Assembly: GCA_903898755.1 (NCBI GenBank)
Contig: CAIUGT010000008.1
Span: 1-64,000 of the forward strand
DNA: 64,000 nt
Source of the DNA: an uncultured bacterium
GTDB taxonomy: Bacteria > Planctomycetota > Phycisphaerae > Phycisphaerales > SM1A02
Reading direction: 5' to 3'
Shown: piece by piece, positions 3,214 to 16,364 of the stretch
Layout of the letters: each line of letters starts with the position of its first letter
How positions within the stretch are numbered: position 1 is the first letter of the stretch
Made by a program: the position numbers and the translations under genes
Notes under the pieces: generated by a model
What the model was told of the DNA's origin: nothing
Seen by the model: only the letters and a program-made list of their open reading frames with translations
Database searches by the model: none

Positions 3214-3247
3214 GGGTCAACAATGAAACGCCTCACGCGAGCGATTG

Positions 3248-3259
3248 TGACACTTTGAA
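3248..3259. promoter_or_regulatory. Half-site related to the downstream 25-bp dyad element
   Basis: The 12 bases TGACACTTTGAA match the right arm of the dyads at 4075-4101 and 4166-4192 except for one base. This copy lies in the gap between the divergent helicase (3213) and the unknown gene (3376), which suggests a shared binding protein. No clear left arm is present here. Confidence 0.3.
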
Positions 3260-3375
3260 TATCCATTTATAGATGGGAAATACTGCCACCATTTTGAACT
3301 GACTTCTTCCCCTTGCCGCCGCCATCAATTTGAAATTGCGCTGTCACAGATGCTGATTTGAATCGTTTGAAGGGC

Positions 3376-4092
3376 ATGAGCAATCAACCCAAAAATCCAA
3401 ATATCAACCCAAGCGTCGAGGAGGCTATGAAGCAACTTTTGAACCAAACGCAGGGTCCCGCCGAGACCCCGTCTGTGGATGCTCGCGACGTGTCAATTCC
3501 TGCCCGAATTTTGGTGGCCATGCGGTTGATTGAGTTGATGAAGAGTTCGCATGCCAGTACGGCGGAATTAATGGGTGAAATCGCAAGTCAGCTGGGACCT
3601 GATGCCATGCGGATGGCCCAACGTATTCAGCGGTCTCAGCGTGCCGCGCCGAATAGAAAAAGTCCAGAGCGAATGACGTATGTCGCTGCCATGGAAGCGG
3701 TGCGTAATTATGTCAGCGGCGAGCATGGTTTCTTTGATTTCACCAATAAAGCGCAGGCGAATTCAGCGGATGACTATGTCAAAGAATTACAAGATGTGGT
3801 GCAAGCGGGTCTTGTGGCCAAGCCGGAGTCCAAGCCGGAGTCCAAGCCGGAGTCCAAGAAAAAATCCAAGGCCAAGCGAAGTGGGGATGTGGTTGGAAAT
3901 GTTGGCGCAAATCCTGGCCTTATCAACTTTGGTCAAACCAATTCGCCAAGTCTTCCAACTCCAGGGGATTCAAACGCTTCGCAAATTCCAGATGTGGGTG
4001 GTTCTGCAACACCTTTGCAATCACAAAGCGTGAAACCAATAGAGCAGCCAAAACCGCCCAAGGAGCACCCAAATGAAAGTGACAGAAATTGA
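3376..4092 (+). CDS. Hypothetical lysine-rich protein with KPES repeats
   Basis: No family recognised. The ATG at 3376 gives 238 residues; an in-frame TTG at 3358 would add six. The first half is predicted helical and charged. The centre has three perfect KPES repeats followed by a basic KKKSKAKR tract. The C-terminal part is rich in N, P, S, Q and G and looks disordered, ending in a proline/lysine tail. The basic patch could bind nucleic acid, but this is inference. The gene is divergent from the helicase and is followed by the ECF-like sigma factor. Its last codons overlap the first copy of the repeated dyad (4075-4101), so the stop lies inside a putative regulatory element. Confidence 0.6.
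   Translation: MSNQPKNPNINPSVEEAMKQLLNQTQGPAETPSVDARDVSIPARILVAMRLIELMKSSHASTAELMGEIASQLGPDAMRMAQRIQRSQRAAPNRKSPERMTYVAAMEAVRNYVSGEHGFFDFTNKAQANSADDYVKELQDVVQAGLVAKPESKPESKPESKKKSKAKRSGDVVGNVGANPGLINFGQTNSPSLPTPGDSNASQIPDVGGSATPLQSQSVKPIEQPKPPKEHPNESDRN
3820..3855 (+). repeat. Three tandem 12-bp repeats (AAGCCGGAGTCC)
   Basis: Three identical 12-bp units encode the KPES repeats of the surrounding gene. Perfect identity at all positions, including synonymous ones, points to recent slippage expansion, so copy number may vary between strains. Confidence 0.9.
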
Positions 4093-4101
4093 CACTTTCA
4101 A
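4075..4101. promoter_or_regulatory. Dyad element, copy 1
   Basis: Arms GAAAGTGACA and TGACACTTTC flank a GAAAT spacer; nine of ten arm positions pair. The element spans the stop codon of the upstream gene and recurs 91 bp later with 25 bases unchanged. It contains a TTGACA that could serve as a -35 box. It may be an operator for the downstream sigma-factor gene or an RNA hairpin in the 3' end of the upstream message. Confidence 0.5.
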
Positions 4102-4165
4102 CCGAGCTCTTTCCCATTATGGGGGAGCGTTTGTTTTTGCCGGCTGGGCGGACGGGGTCGGAGTG

Positions 4166-4192
4166 GAAGTGACAGAAATTGACACTTTCAAA
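4166..4192. promoter_or_regulatory. Dyad element, copy 2
   Basis: Second copy of the dyad, identical to copy 1 over 4168-4192. It lies 155 bp upstream of the chosen start of the sigma-factor gene, with a TATAGA at 4209-4214 further downstream. The spacing between the embedded TTGACA and TATAGA (24 bp) is too long for a standard sigma-70 promoter, so an operator role is more likely than a core promoter. Confidence 0.5.
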
Positions 4193-4346
4193 TGTCGGGG
4201 TTGCTTTCTATAGAGGGGCTGCATTTCCGGCGAAGTCGTTCCGGGTGTCCAAATAGATGTGTCGGTTTGAAGTTTGGTTTGTCCCAACCAGTTGCCATGT
4301 TGGCGGCGGTTGTTCTGCGCACTTGGCCTTTCAAAGAAAGAGATTC

Positions 4347-5228
4347 ATGAAACTGAACCGTAAGAAAAAGAAATTGAACATAAACAGGTCGCTGTCATTC
4401 GCTGGAAATCTGCGTGGTGAATTGCGTGCTTGGGAAAGTGACTGCCAGGCTAAATTGAACTCTGGCTGCATTTTGGGTTACAAAGAATTGGCTCTCTATA
4501 TGTATTGGTACGCAAACATGTCCGAGGAGACCAACAGTGGACTTGAGGCAAACCTTGCCGATGGACATGATGGCGTCATGAATCGGGCGATCAGCTTTTT
4601 AGGCAAGGCCTCTCAGAATTTAATTGACGACGCGCGTTTTCACAGTATTGGTCAGTTGAAGAGCTACGCCAATACAGCATTCAACTCCGCCGCAGTTGAT
4701 GCTGGGCGTAGGCAGTCCATGCCGCAGAAACAGGACATTTATAACCAGACGCTTGACCGGGTGGAAGTGAAGGTGCGGCGAGTGAAGCGGATGATTGAAA
4801 ATCCAAAGATCGGTCTGCACATTGTGGATTTGGTGTCGGCTTCAAATTCCACGTTCGAAAGTCTTGAACGGCGGGAATTAAAAATGAAACTGAAAGAACT
4901 CCTTGAAGTTGTCTTGTCACAGTGCAAGCAACAGAACTATGTGCAAGTGCTGCGCATGGATATGCAAGGGATGAATGGGCCGCAAATCGCCGCCGCCCTT
5001 GGCAAGAGTCACGCCAATATTCGGCAGATGTTGCATCGAGCAAAAACATATGTAGGGCAAGCCATTTTGGCCAAGCCAGACGCACGGTACTTGATCCAGG
5101 AATTCATTGGAATTCGCATTGAAGATGAATTTGAAAGTTCCATGCGGTATGTCAAATCGATCAACTTTGCGGCGGAAGATGTACTGGATGCGCAAGTCGA
5201 TCGAAATTTTTTGTGCATGGTTGCCTAG
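4347..5228 (+). CDS. ECF-like sigma-70 family factor
   Basis: The ATG at 4347 gives 293 residues and has an AAGAAAGAG stretch just upstream; the longer frame from 4257 lacks a good start. Residues about 80-123 resemble sigma region 2, ending in F-x-S-x-x-x-L-x-x-Y...N-S-A-x-x-D-A-G-R-R. Residues about 200-240 form a region 4 helix-turn-helix, with GPQIAAALGKSHANIRQMLHRAK as core (positions 211-233). The N-terminus is very lysine-rich. It is longer and more diverged than typical 180-200 residue ECF factors, and no anti-sigma gene is adjacent. It probably directs transcription of a small regulon, possibly its own neighbourhood. Confidence 0.7.
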   Translation: MKLNRKKKKLNINRSLSFAGNLRGELRAWESDCQAKLNSGCILGYKELALYMYWYANMSEETNSGLEANLADGHDGVMNRAISFLGKASQNLIDDARFHSIGQLKSYANTAFNSAAVDAGRRQSMPQKQDIYNQTLDRVEVKVRRVKRMIENPKIGLHIVDLVSASNSTFESLERRELKMKLKELLEVVLSQCKQQNYVQVLRMDMQGMNGPQIAAALGKSHANIRQMLHRAKTYVGQAILAKPDARYLIQEFIGIRIEDEFESSMRYVKSINFAAEDVLDAQVDRNFLCMVA

Positions 5229-5300: not shown

Positions 5301-6479
5301 TCAATGCAGATTCACCAACGCCTGAGCCGCGGCGTGAATTTCGCGCCGCCAACTTTCGGGCTTCAACAACACAACGCGGCCGCCGTAGGCCAGAACCCGC
5401 CGCATAGTTTCAATTTTGCTTGAGGTTGTGAAAGTCACATGCAGCTCAGAAGTAGTTTGCTCCGTCTTTGACTGGTTTCCCGCCGCGTGGCTGGATTTAT
5501 TTTTAATCGGGCGAATGCGTTGGGTTTGCCGTTTCGTCCAAACTTCACCAAGCCCCATGTTCAACGCATAGTGTGGACCATCGCTTGGGAGATCGCGATA
5601 GACCAATTCAACATCGAGGGGTTGATTGTCGTCGGGAAGTCCGCCAACAGCTTGCTCCATTCGCGCGCGCAAGTCGATTGATTTCACTTTGGGAGTGAGC
5701 AGCTCGGTGGAACCTGTGGTGTCATTTGGTTCAGCGATATGTGGATCCATCTCCAATCGATGAAGCGCAAACGACTTGATTTTCTCGGGAGTTTCACTGG
5801 AAAGATCCTGGCACAACGCATAGACGCCGCCTTGGCGAATTAAAATATGGATTGGAAACAAATGGCGAGTCTCATTCGACGCGGTTTTACCTTTCACGCT
5901 TCGATATTTCATGGAGATCACGCGTTGGTCTATGGCCGCCTGCAGCATGGCGGTCCATTTTTTTTGCAGATCTGGTGAGTTGGAGTTGTATTTAATATTG
6001 TCAAAATTGCCTGCAATCGCAGCTGGAAGACCAAAGTCCGCAATGAACAGCACTTTGGTCAAGCGCTCAATGCGTGATTCCCTTGACGAGTTCGCGGCTT
6101 TCGCGCGTGAACGAAGCTCATCCACTTGTTTGCCAAGAAGTTGATCAAGCTTTTCATGCCACGGAGTTCCCGCAAGTGAAGCCGCCAACTTTCGTAGAAC
6201 CACCAGCAAGTCGTCGGGAATAAGCGGCGCCAATCCCGCGCCTGTCGGAGCCGCCGTCATCTGATATCCGAGTTGGCGTTTGTTGCGAATGATGGCGCCG
6301 CCGGCCTTCATTTGGGACAACATTCTTTTCACCGTGCGCGCGTCGCGATTGGTGGCGTGCGTCAAGACCTTCAACGGAATCCATTTGCCGCAGTCGCCCG
6401 CATCCATCAGCAACTTAGTGATGATGGAAACAGACTCATGTCGCAAAGGTCTTGATTTTGCCATGTCGACCTCATTCAA
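5301..6479 (-). CDS. WYL-domain transcriptional regulator
   Basis: A 392-residue regulator with an N-terminal winged helix (about residues 10-75, with ATNRDARTVKRMLSQMKAGG as recognition region), a central WYL domain (about 180-250) and a C-terminal WCX-type extension (about 290-390). The eponymous Trp-Tyr-Leu appears as V-Y-A at about 219-221, so the ligand pocket is degenerate at that site. WYL proteins sense nucleotide-like or nucleic-acid ligands and often sit next to defence or mobile genes. A perfect 12-bp palindrome lies 22 bp upstream of the first ATG, a plausible autoregulatory operator. A second ATG at 6464 is also possible. Confidence 0.8.
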   Translation of the reverse strand: MNEVDMAKSRPLRHESVSIITKLLMDAGDCGKWIPLKVLTHATNRDARTVKRMLSQMKAGGAIIRNKRQLGYQMTAAPTGAGLAPLIPDDLLVVLRKLAASLAGTPWHEKLDQLLGKQVDELRSRAKAANSSRESRIERLTKVLFIADFGLPAAIAGNFDNIKYNSNSPDLQKKWTAMLQAAIDQRVISMKYRSVKGKTASNETRHLFPIHILIRQGGVYALCQDLSSETPEKIKSFALHRLEMDPHIAEPNDTTGSTELLTPKVKSIDLRARMEQAVGGLPDDNQPLDVELVYRDLPSDGPHYALNMGLGEVWTKRQTQRIRPIKNKSSHAAGNQSKTEQTTSELHVTFTTSSKIETMRRVLAYGGRVVLLKPESWRREIHAAAQALVNLH

Positions 6480-6557: not shown

Positions 6558-7145
6558 TCAGTCGTAAATACTGTTGGCGTCTTCGATGCTTTTGTACTTG
6601 AACATTTGCAATCCAATTGAACCACCAGCCATTAAGCCTTTTTGCGCGCCGACATACACGATCACGCCGTTGGTGTACTTGGCAACTCCCGTCACGCCGG
6701 AGTCGCCGCCGACCGCTGTGCCACTGGCGCTTCCAGCCATTGTGTTGGCCTTGAACTCTTCAAGCACTTTTTTATTTTCAAACACAATGATCATTTGCAA
6801 GCCTTGACCACCAACTTGCAAACCAATATTTGGATTGTTCATGGCGGCCCATCCAATTTGTGATCCGTCTGGAGCGAACACCGCGCCGCGACCATATTCC
6901 CCGCCACCAAAGAGAACGCCCCATTTGCCGATGCCTGGAAACACGGCGTAGCCGGCGCTGGATTTCAATTGATCATTCAAACCTGGAATGGCGTTGGTGA
7001 AATAGTCCTTGCCTTGACGCGCCTCAACAAGGAATGAAGAGCGATCATCTTTACTTGGAGCTGTGCTGCAGGCGCCCATTGAAAGCGCGCAAATGAAAGC
7101 CAAACCCAATAGCGAACCGGAAATAAGTCTTTGAAGAATGTTCAT
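6558..7145 (-). CDS. SYLF-domain (YSC84-like) lipoprotein
   Basis: A 195-residue exported protein. The N-terminus has a hydrophobic signal followed by a lipobox-like LSMGAC with Cys26. The rest matches the SYLF/Ysc84 lipid-binding fold: a conserved K-x-x-x-G-Y-A-V-F-P region near residue 65, a glycine-rich GGGEYGRG, a MIIVFENKK strand and a Q-x-G-L-x-A-G-x-S-I-G-L end. SYLF proteins bind phosphoinositides in eukaryotes; bacterial lipoprotein members have no settled function. It is divergent from the dockerin protein at 7275 and appears monocistronic. Confidence 0.85.
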   Translation of the reverse strand: MNILQRLISGSLLGLAFICALSMGACSTAPSKDDRSSFLVEARQGKDYFTNAIPGLNDQLKSSAGYAVFPGIGKWGVLFGGGEYGRGAVFAPDGSQIGWAAMNNPNIGLQVGGQGLQMIIVFENKKVLEEFKANTMAGSASGTAVGGDSGVTGVAKYTNGVIVYVGAQKGLMAGGSIGLQMFKYKSIEDANSIYD

Positions 7146-7274: not shown

Positions 7275-10196
7275 ATGAAGATGTCAGCCGCAATTCTCTT
7301 TTGTGTCGCTTCTTGTTTTGTATTCCCAGCGACCGCATTGGCGGTGGACCCCATTGTTCCCCAGCCGCAAATCATTTGGATTGAGCGCGACAATGGTGAT
7401 TCAACTTTCTACAACAACGTCATTCAATTTGCCACTACGCCGCAGTATCTCAAAGGCACCAAGTTGTTGTTGCGCTTGGCCGATCCGCAAAGCGTAGATC
7501 CATCCATCGCCACCAATTTTCAACTCAGCCTGGATGCGGGGTTGCTCAAATGCATACGCGGCTTGTCGGCCAATGGATACACCGGAACGATTTCGTTGAT
7601 TCCAGATTTCACCCACGCGCAAGATTGGAATTGGAATCCAGATCCAACTGTCATCACGTCTTCAGCCGTGAAATGGATGAAGCCTTATTACTGGGCCAAC
7701 CAAGCCAATCAACTTTTGGCGGCGGCTGGTTGTCCGCTGTTGATTTCAGAAGTGAACATCGAGACGGAAAGCAGCGGCATTGCCGCCGACGACACCACGC
7801 TGAATCCCGTGCGCGCGTACCAAGCCACTCTGTGGCCGGCAGGTCCAACGCAAGTGGGCTATGTGAAGTCCGCAATGACATTTGGATTTACCGCAATGAG
7901 CGGGGCGTTGGCTTGGGAAAACCCGGGCGCGCCAACTGATTCATGGACCGCGCCTATTTTAGATTTTGCCTATTTAGAGCTGTACAACATGTACAAGGAT
8001 TCACACGGTACGACTTATTTGGACGCCTATGCGGCGGGCGCGAATGTTGGAGCCGATCCGCAACCCGCGCTGCCCAACACAATTTATTCGTTGGCGGCGA
8101 GCGCGCTGAACCCCGTGGCGCAAATCATGGGCGATCCAACGGATGCAACGCCCGCGTCCACATTTGGATTTTTATTCGGCAGTCATGCGCCGGCTAATGC
8201 GTTCGCGGGCCAAGATCTTTCACGCATTTGCTTGCTGTTTTCCATTGAGAACTTTTCCAAGCAGCGCGCGGGTTCGCTCATTGACGCGTTTGGAACGTGG
8301 GACGCGCCAATCGCAGGTCCTGGCGCTGGCGTGGACGAATTCATTCAGTTTGAAAAACAATTTCTCACCACCTTCATGCCGTTTTGGGGAACGCCAAGTG
8401 CGCCACCACAAATGGGAATTTTTGAATTCAATGATTTGCCGCCGACGTGGATCAAGCCCAATCTCATGAGCACTCCAACTTTTGACGCGATGAATTTTGT
8501 CATGTGGGATTACCGCGACGCGGCGCCAAGCGAAGTGACGCTGGCTGCGTATCACGAATGGTTGCTCACCTATTGCGCGCAACATCCGCCGCAACGACTT
8601 GTGTTGTATGTCAGCAATCCAACGTCGGCGAGTGATTACAGCTTCTACAACGCCAACGACGCCGCAGTGACCGCCACTGGGTCCACGAATTTTGTGGGCT
8701 TCTTGCAAGAATTACACGCCCAATCGCCAGTGGTTGAAGTGGAGATTTTAATCGATCGATCATCGTGGCCACAAGTGGCAACGCCACCAAGTTCAGGAAC
8801 GCTGCAGCTTCCAGATGTGTGGAATGATTTGCCCGACGCGTTCACATGGTTGACCACACTCATGGGAAATTCAGCGCTTGCTGGCGGCAATCCAATCAAG
8901 GGCCTGACCGTTGACCCTGAAATGGGTTGCGCTAATCCCAACGATACGGATTGCGTGATGTCTGACAACACTTGTCCATGCGCGTCCATTGCATATCAGC
9001 GCATTGTGGATTGGCTAGACAATCAAAAGCGCGTGAATGGTTTGTCGGCGCTGCGAATTGGTTTGGCGCTTGAAGTTGATTCGCAGAATTTTGCCAAGGT
9101 GAACGTGAGTGATTTTCCAATGGCGAGTGATTTGATCGGTGTGTTGGACGCCGCATCACCAGAGTTAGCGAGCTTTACCAAAGGAATCGCGCCGCCTTCT
9201 TGGCGAGCTGCGGGCGACAACACAAGTTTGCTGCAGTCGGTGTATTTAGAGGCCTATGTTGGTTGTGGACGAGTGCCCGCAGGTAAACCCGATGCGGGAA
9301 AAATTCTCACGCAAGGTTCCTATTGGCGCTGGATGAATAATTGCGGTTGCAATGATTCCGCAACACCATTGCCTACAAGTCCCGCGGTTGCGGCGCTTGC
9401 GTTTCAACGCTCTTTGCAGCGAATTCCTTCGGTTCCAAGCGTGGGTTCCATTGTGGCAACCCCGCAGGGCGCGCCCAATGTGCAAATCACCGGCACTGGA
9501 ACCAACTTTGATTTCACAAATAAGTTTTCCCCCTACGAGGATTACACGCGTATCGCTATTTCAAAACCGGACGGAACATTTATTCCCGACATCACGCAGC
9601 AACTTTCATGGGTGTTACCGCTTGCCGAAGCTGATGTACCCGCACCAAACGCGTTGATTGCAGGAGCAACTGGTCCACAAGTCACCGCGGGAACTTCACC
9701 ACTTCCGTTTTATTACACGGAGATTCCATTTTTCTGGGGCTCGCCATCCATGACGCAATCAATGGTGAATCGAATCTTCTTTGCCTTCAGTGCGGAGAAG
9801 GACACACTGCTTCCGTTCTTCGGCTATTGGACCTCGGACAACTTCGTGTCGTTTGTGGATCAGTTTCGAAACGCAACGCAGGGAACTGATGCAACGAAGA
9901 CTATTTACCAAGACAGCGCAGGCAATGGAATTGCCATGCCCATGAACAACTTTGCGATTTACGATTTGAAGCAAGCGTGCAACCAGTGGAAAATTGCCAC
10001 GTATCCTGGTGGCGCCACCAACGAACCACCGTGCGTTGGCGATCTTGATCAAAACGGCACTGTGGATTCAGCGGATATCGCCGGCATTTTGCTGCAGTGG
10101 GGCAACATGGGTGGAAGCGCTGACTTTGATCACAGTGGCGAAACTGATGGAGCCGATCTTGGACTTGCGCTGATCAATAGTGGTCCGTGCAACTGA
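7275..10196 (+). CDS. Large secreted protein with C-terminal dockerin-like repeats
   Basis: A 973-residue protein with a clear signal peptide (cleavage near ALA-VDP, residue 24). The body is rich in aromatic and proline residues and contains strand-loop segments such as ISEVNIETES and GLTVDPEMG that could be ends of beta strands in a TIM-barrel hydrolase, but I recognise no catalytic motif. The last 50 residues carry two dockerin-type calcium loops (D-x-D-Q-N-G-T-V-D-S-A-D and D-F-D-H-S-G-E-T-D-G-A-D), a common terminus of secreted Phycisphaerae proteins. It stands alone, ending 15 bp before the convergent glycyl-tRNA synthetase stop. Confidence 0.75.
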   Translation: MKMSAAILFCVASCFVFPATALAVDPIVPQPQIIWIERDNGDSTFYNNVIQFATTPQYLKGTKLLLRLADPQSVDPSIATNFQLSLDAGLLKCIRGLSANGYTGTISLIPDFTHAQDWNWNPDPTVITSSAVKWMKPYYWANQANQLLAAAGCPLLISEVNIETESSGIAADDTTLNPVRAYQATLWPAGPTQVGYVKSAMTFGFTAMSGALAWENPGAPTDSWTAPILDFAYLELYNMYKDSHGTTYLDAYAAGANVGADPQPALPNTIYSLAASALNPVAQIMGDPTDATPASTFGFLFGSHAPANAFAGQDLSRICLLFSIENFSKQRAGSLIDAFGTWDAPIAGPGAGVDEFIQFEKQFLTTFMPFWGTPSAPPQMGIFEFNDLPPTWIKPNLMSTPTFDAMNFVMWDYRDAAPSEVTLAAYHEWLLTYCAQHPPQRLVLYVSNPTSASDYSFYNANDAAVTATGSTNFVGFLQELHAQSPVVEVEILIDRSSWPQVATPPSSGTLQLPDVWNDLPDAFTWLTTLMGNSALAGGNPIKGLTVDPEMGCANPNDTDCVMSDNTCPCASIAYQRIVDWLDNQKRVNGLSALRIGLALEVDSQNFAKVNVSDFPMASDLIGVLDAASPELASFTKGIAPPSWRAAGDNTSLLQSVYLEAYVGCGRVPAGKPDAGKILTQGSYWRWMNNCGCNDSATPLPTSPAVAALAFQRSLQRIPSVPSVGSIVATPQGAPNVQITGTGTNFDFTNKFSPYEDYTRIAISKPDGTFIPDITQQLSWVLPLAEADVPAPNALIAGATGPQVTAGTSPLPFYYTEIPFFWGSPSMTQSMVNRIFFAFSAEKDTLLPFFGYWTSDNFVSFVDQFRNATQGTDATKTIYQDSAGNGIAMPMNNFAIYDLKQACNQWKIATYPGGATNEPPCVGDLDQNGTVDSADIAGILLQWGNMGGSADFDHSGETDGADLGLALINSGPCN

Positions 10197-10211: not shown

Positions 10212-11741
10212 TTAACCAACTTGAGCATCAAGCCACGCGGGCACGGCGTCGATATGCATTTTCTCCTGCAACTGCGTGTCGCGATGGCGAATGGTGACGG
10301 TCTGCGCGGTAAGCGTTTCCGAATCAATCGTGATGCAGAACGGAGTTCCCGCCTCATCCATGCGCGCGTAACGCTTGCCGATGGTTTGCTTGGGGTCGTA
10401 CTCGCACATGTGTCGCTTGCGCAACTCACGGTGCAGGCGCTCGGCGATTTCCGGCATGCCGTCCTTGTTGACCAGTGGAAAAATTCCGGCCTTCACTGGC
10501 GCCATGCGTGGATGGAATTTCATAAACACGCCGCTGGGACGTGATTCATCTTTGGTGTAGGCCTCGCATAAAAGCGCCAACGTGCCGCGGTCGGCGCCGG
10601 CGGATGGCTCAATGACATGCGGGAAATATCGCTCGTTCTTTTCCTGATCGAAATATTTTGCCTTGTCATTTTTGCCGGAATGCTCCGCGTGCTGGCGCAA
10701 ATCAAATTCGCCGCGATGCGCCACACCTTCCAATTCACCAAAGCCAGGAGAGGTGAAAGGAAACTTATACTCAATGTCGCTGGTACCCGCGCCAACTTTG
10801 GCGTAGTGGGCCAACTCGTCGCGGTCATGCTCGCGCAACTGCAAGTTGCCGCTGGTCAAGCCAATGGATTGCCACCATGCGAAGCGCTGGTCACGCCACC
10901 ACGCATACCACTGCGGGGCTTGGTCGGGCTGAATGAAGAACTCCAATTCCATTTGTTCAAATTCGCGGCTGCGGAATGTGAAATTGCGCGGCGTGACTTC
11001 ATTGCGGAACGCTTTTCCAATTTGCGCAATGCCAAACGGCACGCGAACGCGCGTGCTGTTGATGACGTTGTCAAAGTTGGCGAAAATGCCCTGGGCAGTT
11101 TCAGGGCGCAAGTATGCGGCGTTGGCCGGATCTTCAATCGCACCCACATTGGTCTTGAACATCAAGTTGAATTGGCGCGGTTCGGTCAGAGTTCCAGGTT
11201 CCTTGGCTTCGGGACCAACGCAACGCGCGCGCTCGTCGGCGTTGAGCGTGGTGAAAGCGCGAACTAAATGGCGCGCGGGATCAAGCACTTCGCGTCGCTC
11301 ATACTTCAGCAGAATTTTCTCCGCCTTAGCGCGTTGCTCGGTATCATTGTCAATGAACGCGTACAAGCGCGCGCCATCTTCCGCCGCGCCAAGCACCATC
11401 AAGTGGTCGGCGCGGTAGCGCGCCTTACTTTCGCGGCAATCCACCATCGGATCGTTGAAGCCGCCGACATGGCCAGAAGCCACCCACACTTTTGGATTCA
11501 TGATGATGGATGAATCAAGCCCAACAATTTGCACGGGGTCGCCGAAAGGGCCAATGAGTTCGTTGCGCACAATGTCCTGCCACCACGCGTTCTTTAGATT
11601 GCGTTTGAGTTCAGTTCCCAGTGGGCCGTAATCCCAGAAACCGTTGATGCCGCCGTAAATTTCTGAGCTTTGAAAAATGAAGCCGCGGCGACGGCAGAGC
11701 GAGACAATTTCTTCCATTGATTTGGTTGGGGCGTCTGACAT
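10212..11741 (-). CDS. glyQS: Glycyl-tRNA synthetase (single-chain, alpha2 type)
   Basis: A 509-residue class II aminoacyl-tRNA synthetase that charges tRNA-Gly with glycine. The start GFIFQSSEIYGGINGFWDYGP is the typical N-terminus of the dimeric enzyme (residues about 20-40). Class II motif 2 is seen in FRNEVTPRNFTFRSREFEQME, the substrate loop in YLRPETAQGIF, and an HGTP anticodon-binding domain fills the last 110 residues (GIFPLVNKDG...). Length fits the bacterial alpha2 GlyRS. The ATG at 11741 is 65 bp from the divergent start at 11807, so the two genes share a short promoter region. Confidence 0.96.
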   Translation of the reverse strand: MSDAPTKSMEEIVSLCRRRGFIFQSSEIYGGINGFWDYGPLGTELKRNLKNAWWQDIVRNELIGPFGDPVQIVGLDSSIIMNPKVWVASGHVGGFNDPMVDCRESKARYRADHLMVLGAAEDGARLYAFIDNDTEQRAKAEKILLKYERREVLDPARHLVRAFTTLNADERARCVGPEAKEPGTLTEPRQFNLMFKTNVGAIEDPANAAYLRPETAQGIFANFDNVINSTRVRVPFGIAQIGKAFRNEVTPRNFTFRSREFEQMELEFFIQPDQAPQWYAWWRDQRFAWWQSIGLTSGNLQLREHDRDELAHYAKVGAGTSDIEYKFPFTSPGFGELEGVAHRGEFDLRQHAEHSGKNDKAKYFDQEKNERYFPHVIEPSAGADRGTLALLCEAYTKDESRPSGVFMKFHPRMAPVKAGIFPLVNKDGMPEIAERLHRELRKRHMCEYDPKQTIGKRYARMDEAGTPFCITIDSETLTAQTVTIRHRDTQLQEKMHIDAVPAWLDAQVG

Positions 11742-14383: not shown

Positions 14384-14821
14384 GTGGCGCGTATTCGCTC
14401 GTTCGTTATGAGCCATCATGGTTCGCAGAAACGCCAACCTATCTACCATGTCAGCATGGATAATCGCTCTCAGTCATCCCCAAGTTTGGTTGCCAGATTC
14501 GTGTCTCTGTTGACCACGCCTGTTGGCCAATTCCGTTTGGCGGCCATCACTGAGGCATGGTCTTGGGCCGGCTTGCTCGTGGGAATGTATTTCAAATATT
14601 CCGCGGCGGCCAATCCAATTGGCGTGCAAATGATGGGGCCCATTCACGGCGGACTTTTTATTTTCTATGTCATCGCCACCATTCGCGTGGCCATGCATAT
14701 GCGCTGGGGAATGTGGACAACCATCATTGGAATTTTCGCGGCTTTGCCACCGTTTTGCACCTACTTTTTCGAAGTGTGGATGTTGCGTTCGCGGCGCCTA
14801 GAAGTGAAGCCGCGCTCCTGA
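14384..14821 (+). CDS. DUF3817 integral membrane protein
   Basis: The last 110 residues match the small DUF3817 family: FRLAAITEAWSWAGLLVGMYFKY, then a GPIHGGLFIFYVIATIRVAMHM segment and a third helix before a basic tail. Members are three-helix inner membrane proteins of unknown role, often beside MFS-type carriers. The stop is certain but the start is not: GTG 14384, ATG 14408 and ATG 14456 are all in frame and none has a good ribosome-binding site. The 14456 start would give 121 residues, closest to the usual family length. Confidence 0.75.
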   Translation: MARIRSFVMSHHGSQKRQPIYHVSMDNRSQSSPSLVARFVSLLTTPVGQFRLAAITEAWSWAGLLVGMYFKYSAAANPIGVQMMGPIHGGLFIFYVIATIRVAMHMRWGMWTTIIGIFAALPPFCTYFFEVWMLRSRRLEVKPRS

Positions 14822-14945
14822 CGACGCTGGTTGCTGGGCACACGCGCATCTTTTCAATTATGAAATTTTCCAATGCCATGCGCCGTAAAAAATTGAAATT
14901 CTATTTTTAAATCACTCTGCATCGCAAGCCGTTAGCCTTGCGCAC

Positions 14946-16364
14946 ATGAATCGAATTGCTCTTGTGGCTGGTCCACTTTTTGGAATACTCGCCTGGCTCA
15001 CTTTTGATCCATCCATAATCGGCGTGAGCGACATGAGCAGGCCTGGCGCAATCGTCACGGGGCTTCTGGTGTGGATGGCCATATGGTGGGCGACGCAGGT
15101 GGTCGATCTTGCCATCACTGGTTTATTGCCGGTGATTGTGCTGACTATTTTCAACATCGGCTCCACGCAGGAAATATTGTCGCCCTACGCCAACGATGTG
15201 ATTTTTCTTTTTGCCGGCGGTTGCACTATTGGATTCGCAATTGAGCGGCACGGACTTGGCCAGCGCTTTATTGCGTTTGTGTTGAGGCATGTCGGCCATT
15301 CACCCTCGCGAATTGTCGCGGGATTTCTCATCGGCACGTCGCTCTTAAGCGCGTGGGTTTCCAACATGGCTTCCGCGGCAATCATGCTGCCGTTGGCAAG
15401 TGCGGCCGTAGCTTGTTTTGCAAATGTTTCAATTGAAAAACCAGAGCACACGCGTGCCTTTCATAATTTTGAGCGCGCCGTTTTTCTAGCCGTTGCGTAT
15501 GGCGCAAGCATCGGCGGAGTGATGACGCTCCTTGGTAGTCCACCCAATCCAATCGCCGCTGAGTGGTTGCGCGCCAATGGAAGCAAGATGGATTTTTTGA
15601 GTTGGTCCATGATCGGCGTGCCCACAGCGCTTGTCATGATGGCGGCTACGTTCATTGTTTTTAGCGTCATGTTTCCAATGAAGAGTCTCGCCTCGTCATC
15701 TATCACTCTTCCCATGAATCACGGACCCATGACGCGCGCCGCGAAGATGACCATTGTGATTTTTGTCGCGGCCATTATTGCGTGGGTGGGGGCGCCATTT
15801 ATTAAATCATGGTTGCCTGATTTAATGTTGCGCGATGGAATGATCGCCATCACTGCCGCGTTGCTGCTGTTCATCATTCCAGAAATGAAGGGCTCCAATG
15901 ACGCCATTGTTCCGTGGTCTCAAACGGCGCATTTGCCATGGGGAATATTCATTTTGTTTGGCGGTGGGCTTTGTCTTGCCGATGCCATGCAGCGCACGGG
16001 TGTATCGAACGCGGTGGCGCAATCATTCACTGGGCTCTCAGTGGTGCCCGCCCCAATCTTGTTGTTCATCATTGTGATTTCCCTGATTTTTGCCAGCGAA
16101 ATTGCCTCCAACACCGCGCTTGTGGCCACGGCTGTTCCAATCGTTGGCGCAATGGCGCCTGGACTTGGAATACCCACTGAACGATTGGTGGTGGCGTGCG
16201 CGCTTGCCACAAGTTACGCATTCATGTTGCCAGTGGGAACGCCGCCAAGCGCGTTGGTGTTTGCCACGGGCCGCGTCCCTTTGAAGCAAATGATGCGAGT
16301 TGGATTTGTGTTGAACTTGTGCGCCGCCATCATCATCACGCTGGCGTGCTCAATTCTTGCGTAA
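14946..16364 (+). CDS. DASS/SLC13 family sodium:anion symporter
   Basis: A 472-residue carrier of the divalent anion:Na+ symporter family (di- and tricarboxylates or sulfate). The two symmetry-related substrate/sodium loops are visible: SNMASAAIMLPLA in the first half (about residue 138) and ASNTALVATAVPIVGAMAPG in the second. The second keeps the canonical Ser-Asn-Thr; the first has Ser-Asn-Met. A Sec-independent 11-12 helix topology is expected. The spacing from the upstream DUF3817 gene (124 bp) suggests a separate transcript. Substrate is not predictable from the sequence. Confidence 0.88.
   Translation: MNRIALVAGPLFGILAWLTFDPSIIGVSDMSRPGAIVTGLLVWMAIWWATQVVDLAITGLLPVIVLTIFNIGSTQEILSPYANDVIFLFAGGCTIGFAIERHGLGQRFIAFVLRHVGHSPSRIVAGFLIGTSLLSAWVSNMASAAIMLPLASAAVACFANVSIEKPEHTRAFHNFERAVFLAVAYGASIGGVMTLLGSPPNPIAAEWLRANGSKMDFLSWSMIGVPTALVMMAATFIVFSVMFPMKSLASSSITLPMNHGPMTRAAKMTIVIFVAAIIAWVGAPFIKSWLPDLMLRDGMIAITAALLLFIIPEMKGSNDAIVPWSQTAHLPWGIFILFGGGLCLADAMQRTGVSNAVAQSFTGLSVVPAPILLFIIVISLIFASEIASNTALVATAVPIVGAMAPGLGIPTERLVVACALATSYAFMLPVGTPPSALVFATGRVPLKQMMRVGFVLNLCAAIIITLACSILA

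Follow-up and report, generated by a model that had tools for sequence, protein, structure and literature searches.

Judged by what recurs in other genomes, the core of the gene island described here is a pair of genes for a phage-type SF2 helicase and a DUF932-like protein, and not the sigma factor. The pair with its recurrent linkage to WYL regulators is by the same comparison a more general finding than a cluster centred on a sigma factor. The island probably works as an inducible unit of DNA repair or phage defence, because it carries switches of its own, namely a regulator of sensor type, the gene of a divergent sigma factor and private palindromic sites. A first-pass annotation had suspected an accessory or defence-like, self-regulated module driven by its own sigma factor. 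The accessory and self-contained character held, whereas drive by the sigma factor is the less likely reading, and defence is possible but so far indistinguishable from a role in DNA repair or replication. The window, i.e., the whole analysed stretch of 64 kb, is the first part of an 81-kb contig from a draft genome that totals 2.59 Mb (Table 1).

Table 1. Genes and sites of the island and its flank in the window
Feature	Position	Strand	Remarks
Bflower_3 beta-flower protein, part of ~156 aa	1-261	-	outer island edge; contig starts inside the gene
DUF932-like protein, 425 aa	513-1790	-	Pfam DUF932 E 0.18; helicase partner
SF2 (ResIII/DEAD type) helicase, 419 aa	1954-3213	-	phage-type, RadD/UvsW-like core
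Promoter-like stretch with half-site	3245-3273	+	TTGTGA - 17 bp - TATAGA; eight-genome alignment
Unknown Lys-rich protein, 238 aa	3376-4092	+	helical at ~residues 41-147; disordered Lys/Pro-rich tail with KPES repeats
Dyad 1	4075-4099	.	GAAAGTGACAGAAATTGACACTTTC, exact
Dyad 2	4165-4189	.	GAAAGTGACAGAAATTGACACTTTC with 1 mismatch
-10-like box TATAGA	4209-4214	+	32 bp downstream of dyad 2 centre in 8/8 genomes
Divergent ECF-like sigma factor, 293 aa	4347-5228	+	conserved start 4347; ORF could begin at 4257
Probable wHTH-WYL-WCX regulator, 387 aa (ATG start)	5301-6464	-	candidate dyad binder
SYLF-type lipoprotein	6558-7145	-	glyS side of island; between WYL and glyS in carriers
glyS	10212-11741	-	island flank

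A probable old integration site beside glyS

Within the genus, each of the five cluster proteins (DUF932-like protein, helicase, Lys-rich protein, sigma factor and WYL regulator) has a match in the identical eight of 16 genomes; the neighbours are thus conserved together. Several assemblies break inside the cluster. Relatives that share the locus are represented by MAGs with the label Phycisphaerales or Planctomycetia, and the isolate names point to lakes for some of them. In the carriers the island separates an esterase gene from glyS. The nearest non-carrier, with a glyS of 94% identity, has an empty site, the gap between esterase gene and glyS being about 45 bp. At the far island edge, next to the esterase gene, a degenerate ~100-bp copy of the 3' end of glyS is present in the carriers whose contigs span this edge, with up to 75% identity over 102 bp (E 1.7e-14). 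An empty site and a duplicated target end, the marks of an integrase-borne island, are therefore both found, and they support the accessory nature claimed in the first-pass annotation. These features suggest that an element integrated next to glyS long ago, although no integrase was seen. Most simply, an island of ~7 kb (about 10 kb in this genome) would have been acquired once, at the 3' end of glyS, in the ancestor of a clade of freshwater phycisphaeral planctomycetes and then inherited vertically, since all carriers share its position. Among carriers with long matches, glyS is 98-99% identical.

The edges of the island are occupied by further genes. The beta-flower gene sits between the esterase and DUF932-like genes in other carriers (Pfam Bflower_3 E 7.7e-14 in a relative). 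The SYLF-type lipoprotein matched NCBIfam lipo_BPSL1445 (E 2e-11, below its cut-off) and Pfam Ysc84 (E 1.8e-5). Between the SYLF gene and glyS the window has an added gene (7275-10196) for a secreted-type protein of 973 aa with a C-terminal stretch resembling a dockerin-type repeat; it is absent from this junction in the carriers where the junction is readable.

The helicase and its DUF932-like partner

The helicase scored above the Pfam cut-offs for ResIII (48.8 bits, E 9.9e-13) and Helicase_C (35.7 bits, E 1.1e-8), matched the DNA helicase family phrog_16 (E 1.8e-43) and gave PDB profile matches to a putative helicase (7clg) and to RadD (6jde). The motifs PTGSGKT and DEAH are present in the helicases of all carriers. 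The partner reached 12 bits against the cut-off of 23 for PF06067, and the best of 17 relatives an E-value of 0.00016. Of the gene calls, the SF2 helicase and the WYL regulator are clear and the ECF-like sigma factor is plausible at scores below the cut-offs, while DUF932 is a weak match only.

Compared with the proteins of all carriers except the near-twin G015, the window proteins were 91-96% (DUF932-like) and 91-92% (helicase) identical, the WYL regulator 71-76%, the Lys-rich protein 69-76% and the sigma factor 53-58%. The ECF-like sigma factor and the Lys-rich protein are the fastest-evolving proteins of the cluster; by these identities, the pair stays constant and the regulators drift. 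In genome G003, two helicase N-termini of ~88% identity (L036 on contig C324, L043 on contig C453) reflect a strain mixture or a second copy.

Twenty related loci were recruited by the DUF932-like protein, save L105-L107, which were recruited by the helicase. Profile searches located the helicase and DUF932-like genes close to each other and on one strand in 19 of these 20 loci, sometimes with one small gene between them. Six of the 19 are from Phycisphaerae, six from one Planctomycetia family (L094-L099) and seven are contigs of viral collections (L101-L107); L101 and L102 seem to derive from a single virus. The exception was L191, a fuller view of L100, whose DUF932-like gene had no detected helicase neighbour. 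In five loci, four of one lineage (L186, L187, L189, L190) and L078, the pair lies among housekeeping or core genes and no WYL gene was seen, so a constitutive role fits as well. In L077 a protein resembling Schlafen AlbA_2 and the RecG C-terminus is encoded a few kb from the pair (14461-15879), and in L079 the pair is near serine-recombinase-like and XRE-like genes, possibly on an integrated element.

The viral contigs with the pair (IMG/VR) have a size of 18-408 kb; four of the seven carry a terminase gene, and ligase or dCMP deaminase genes are nearby in some. The DUF932-like protein had no match in plasmids or named phages, and its phage-contig versions had none in named phages either. The helicase had only distant relatives in 50,697 named phage records, with <30% identity among the matches listed. 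An origin from a plasmid or a cultured phage was rejected on the missing matches of the DUF932-like protein (plasmids, phages) and of the sigma factor (phages). The viral contigs, with ligase or dCMP deaminase genes near the pair in some, and the repeated glyS 3' end at the island edge would also suit an island left behind by an integrated phage or satellite, with the pair as a leftover replication cassette of no role in the host. We consider this quite improbable: in the stretches covered by contigs the carriers have open reading frames for the genes, no integrase or structural gene is among the island genes listed, and the 91-96% identity of helicase and DUF932-like proteins between genomes speaks for selection. 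A known anti-phage defence system was rejected as well, PADLOC-DB 2023 giving no system-specific match; helicase and WYL regulator matched generic models and three of the five cluster proteins none.

Palindromic sites and their candidate binders

Two copies of a 25-bp near-palindrome are present, as had been noticed in the first-pass annotation; the coordinates given there (4077-4101 and 4168-4192) were wrong by 2-3 bases. The sites have arms of 11 bp and a spacer of 5 bp and read AAGGTGACA-GAAAT-TGTCACTTTC (dyad 1) and TGAAAGTGTCA-GAAAT-TGACACTTTCA (dyad 2) in the relatives. Dyad 2 was found in 8/8 carriers and both dyads in all seven carriers where both are readable, with centres 89-90 bp apart in 7/7. 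The mean column conservation of dyad 2 was 0.97 versus 0.78 for the stretch between the dyads. A search with the 25-mer consensus (<=3 mismatches) gave matches confined to this intergenic region in the eight carriers and none in the eight non-carrier genomes, the reversed control yielding 0. With a relaxed dyad pattern, both sites were recovered in this genome together with a background equal to the reversed control, and the dinucleotide-shuffled 64-kb window contained no GAAAGTGACAGAAATTGACACTTTC-type match. Full dyads were found solely at this locus, to which the dyad is thus private, and the idea of a genome-wide repeat was rejected on this ground; a chance repeat was rejected by the shuffles, the whole-genome scans and the conservation.

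A box resembling TATAGA or TATGGG lies 31-32 bp downstream of each dyad. For the box downstream of dyad 2 no good -35 hexamer was present, and the consensus scan gave no sigma-70 promoter match. The recurrence of the right arm in the gap between the divergent helicase and Lys-rich genes, also part of the initial description, was confirmed: the half-site TGACACTTTGAA is present at 3248-3259 and its core TGTGACACTT is invariant in 8/8 carriers, at a constant distance from the helicase start. Alone, the half-site exceeds chance weakly, with 3 matches in the window versus 0.89 expected. The TATAGA of this promoter-like stretch is kept in 6/8 carriers.

The dyads might act in RNA, as hairpins in a leader or at the end of the Lys-rich gene transcript (terminator or attenuator), rather than as DNA operators. 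Dyad 2 of a relative folds well (z -3.2), and in the window a terminator-like hairpin with a T-rich tail (4106-4128) lies 3' of dyad 1 and the Lys-rich gene. We regard a role in RNA as highly improbable, with the GAAAT spacer conserved almost like the arms, pairs broken by arm changes in G000 and G015, a window dyad 2 that does not fold as a hairpin (z -0.6) and a T-run that is absent from the relatives.

The sigma factor remained below the cut-offs for NCBIfam sigma70-ECF TIGR02937 (29.8 bits versus 42.9, E 3.9e-7) and Sigma70_r4_2 (21.5 bits versus 25.7). The top PDB matches in Foldseek were sigma factors (E 0.04). The Lys-rich protein had no Pfam or NCBIfam match, and its helical model had no PDB match; the fold matches of both proteins are weak because the predicted structures are of low confidence. 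Both proteins were found only in this clade: the sigma factor had no match in 45 genomes of other genera, the profile of the Lys-rich protein detected none among a further 396 genomes taken from the class, and neither had a match in the viral contigs. A 12-bp tandem repeat, CCAAGCCGGAGT, at 3819-3861 encodes the KPES motifs of the Lys-rich protein, with a copy number different from that of the nearest relative.

The two dyads and their boxes lie ahead of the sigma gene and share its restriction to one clade. The units of dyad and -10 box may thus be read as autoregulated, sigma-specific promoters, with the WYL protein as a mere neighbour. ECF promoters are asymmetric -35/-10 pairs, whereas the sites here are palindromes with arms typical of a dimeric regulator. 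Furthermore, the sigma factor diverged to 53-58% identity between genomes while the dyad stayed at 0.97, and the WYL gene also accompanies the pair at loci that lack the sigma gene. A sigma factor acting on the dyads is therefore unlikely in our judgement, and so is the initial view of a module driven by its own sigma factor. The Lys-rich protein could itself be the regulator that binds the dyads and form a separate control pair with the sigma factor. The protein combines helices with a basic tail, and in the window dyad 1 overlaps the stop codon of its gene; it co-occurs strictly with these dyads, both being present only in this clade. A DNA-binding domain was not recognised in it, however, and its low-confidence model is without a PDB match; we attach little probability to this role.

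The WYL protein is the better candidate for a dyad binder than the sigma factor, since the latter is found only in the clade and the former recurs with the pair. The WYL domain scored 26.9 bits for PF13280 against a cut-off of 21.8 (E 5e-6) and matched the PADLOC WYL model (E 6.1e-15); the WCX domain PF25583 reached 21.9 bits in the window protein, versus a cut-off of 23.9 (E 2.3e-4), and 47 bits in the relative from L076. A WYL gene adjoins the pair in this clade and in five other planctomycete loci (L076, L080, L081, L185, L188). In L076 (10606-12939) it follows a gene for a RuvB-like AAA ATPase, both divergent from the pair. A dyad resembling ours, a modest similarity noticed post hoc, lies between the WYL and DUF932-like genes of L080 and L081 and matches the DriD consensus at 11/14 and 10/14 positions; apart from these sites, the scan of the related loci with this consensus gave mostly background. 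Around the pair in L076 and L185 no related dyad turned up, and L188 has a strong inverted repeat that is unrelated to the window dyads. Many WYL-type regulators autoregulate, yet the upstream region of the WYL gene itself contains no dyad, which counts against the model proposed below. In L044 (genome G013), a short tandem repeat of the type CGGACGCGATCGA is located between the sigma and WYL genes.

Proposed regulation and known systems

We infer the WYL protein as binder of the dyads, be it activator or repressor, because the dyad geometry is BrxR-like and the arrangement of palindrome and -10 box DriD-like. In the proposed model, the helicase and its DUF932-like partner would form a two-gene cassette that remodels or processes branched or damaged DNA. 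The wHTH-WYL-WCX protein would sense stress, most plausibly as single-stranded DNA or a nucleotide, and bind the dyads, from where it would control the -10-box promoters ahead of the sigma gene; through the half-site it would control the promoter region between the divergent helicase and Lys-rich genes. In the weakest step of the model, the sigma factor may relay the signal locally, with the helical Lys-rich protein acting as its partner or antagonist. The output would be an inducible repair or anti-phage response. To the model as a whole, an island in which a WYL sensor and a private sigma relay govern a phage-type pair for DNA processing, we give an even chance. More tentative, and on balance rather doubtful, is a wider reading in which the two proteins form a widespread and so far undescribed machine for DNA processing, common to planctomycetes and very large phages and repeatedly WYL-controlled in the hosts, with a private sigma factor and operators added here for a two-tier response to stress or phages. 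WYL-controlled accessory operons are already known, but a helicase-DUF932-like pair common to hosts and large phages, with its own sigma factor, was not found described in the literature searched. Should the pair work in defence or repair, its occurrence on phage contigs would suggest a use in phage replication or counter-defence, and the uncharacterised DUF932-like family would have a testable partner.

On the integrated element CP4-57 of Escherichia coli, the DUF932 gene yfjQ likewise lies beside a gene for a putative transcriptional regulator, yfjR. We take YfjR to be a WYL-type regulator. Unlike in our pair, a helicase gene is not adjacent to yfjQ, and the profile comparison of our DUF932-like family with YfjQ was weak (probability 10, E 0.0032). 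Similar in architecture are BrxR and CapW, WYL regulators of phage-defence operons (PMC9122601, PMC9122588), in which a wHTH-WYL-WCX protein, the probable type of the regulator here, is encoded beside an accessory operon. The inverted repeats of BrxR have 11-bp arms and a 5-bp spacer (PMC9122601), the geometry of our dyads, and two boxes per island are shared as well. The partner operon there is BREX or CBASS, whereas here it is the helicase-DUF932 pair with the ECF-like sigma gene, and our dyads are candidate operators. DriD activates from a palindrome that covers the -35 region and keeps a constant spacing to the -10 element, the -35 being poor (PMC12340889). The spacing of our palindrome to a -10 box is likewise constant, and a good -35 is missing here too; the DriD site, however, is centred on the -35 element, and the centre of dyad 2 is further upstream at about -44. 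From the sites of DriD, SiwR and PafBC (PMC12340889, PMC10693628, PMC11804915) our dyads differ in sequence, the GAC-N7-GTC core occurring only in dyad 1 of relatives. SiwR, a WYL activator that binds ssDNA and acts on adjacent genes under genotoxic stress, is a fair model for the WYL regulator here. With the phage UvsW/RadD-like SF2 helicases (phrog_16) the helicase core is common, and the DUF932-like neighbour is the feature of our pair.
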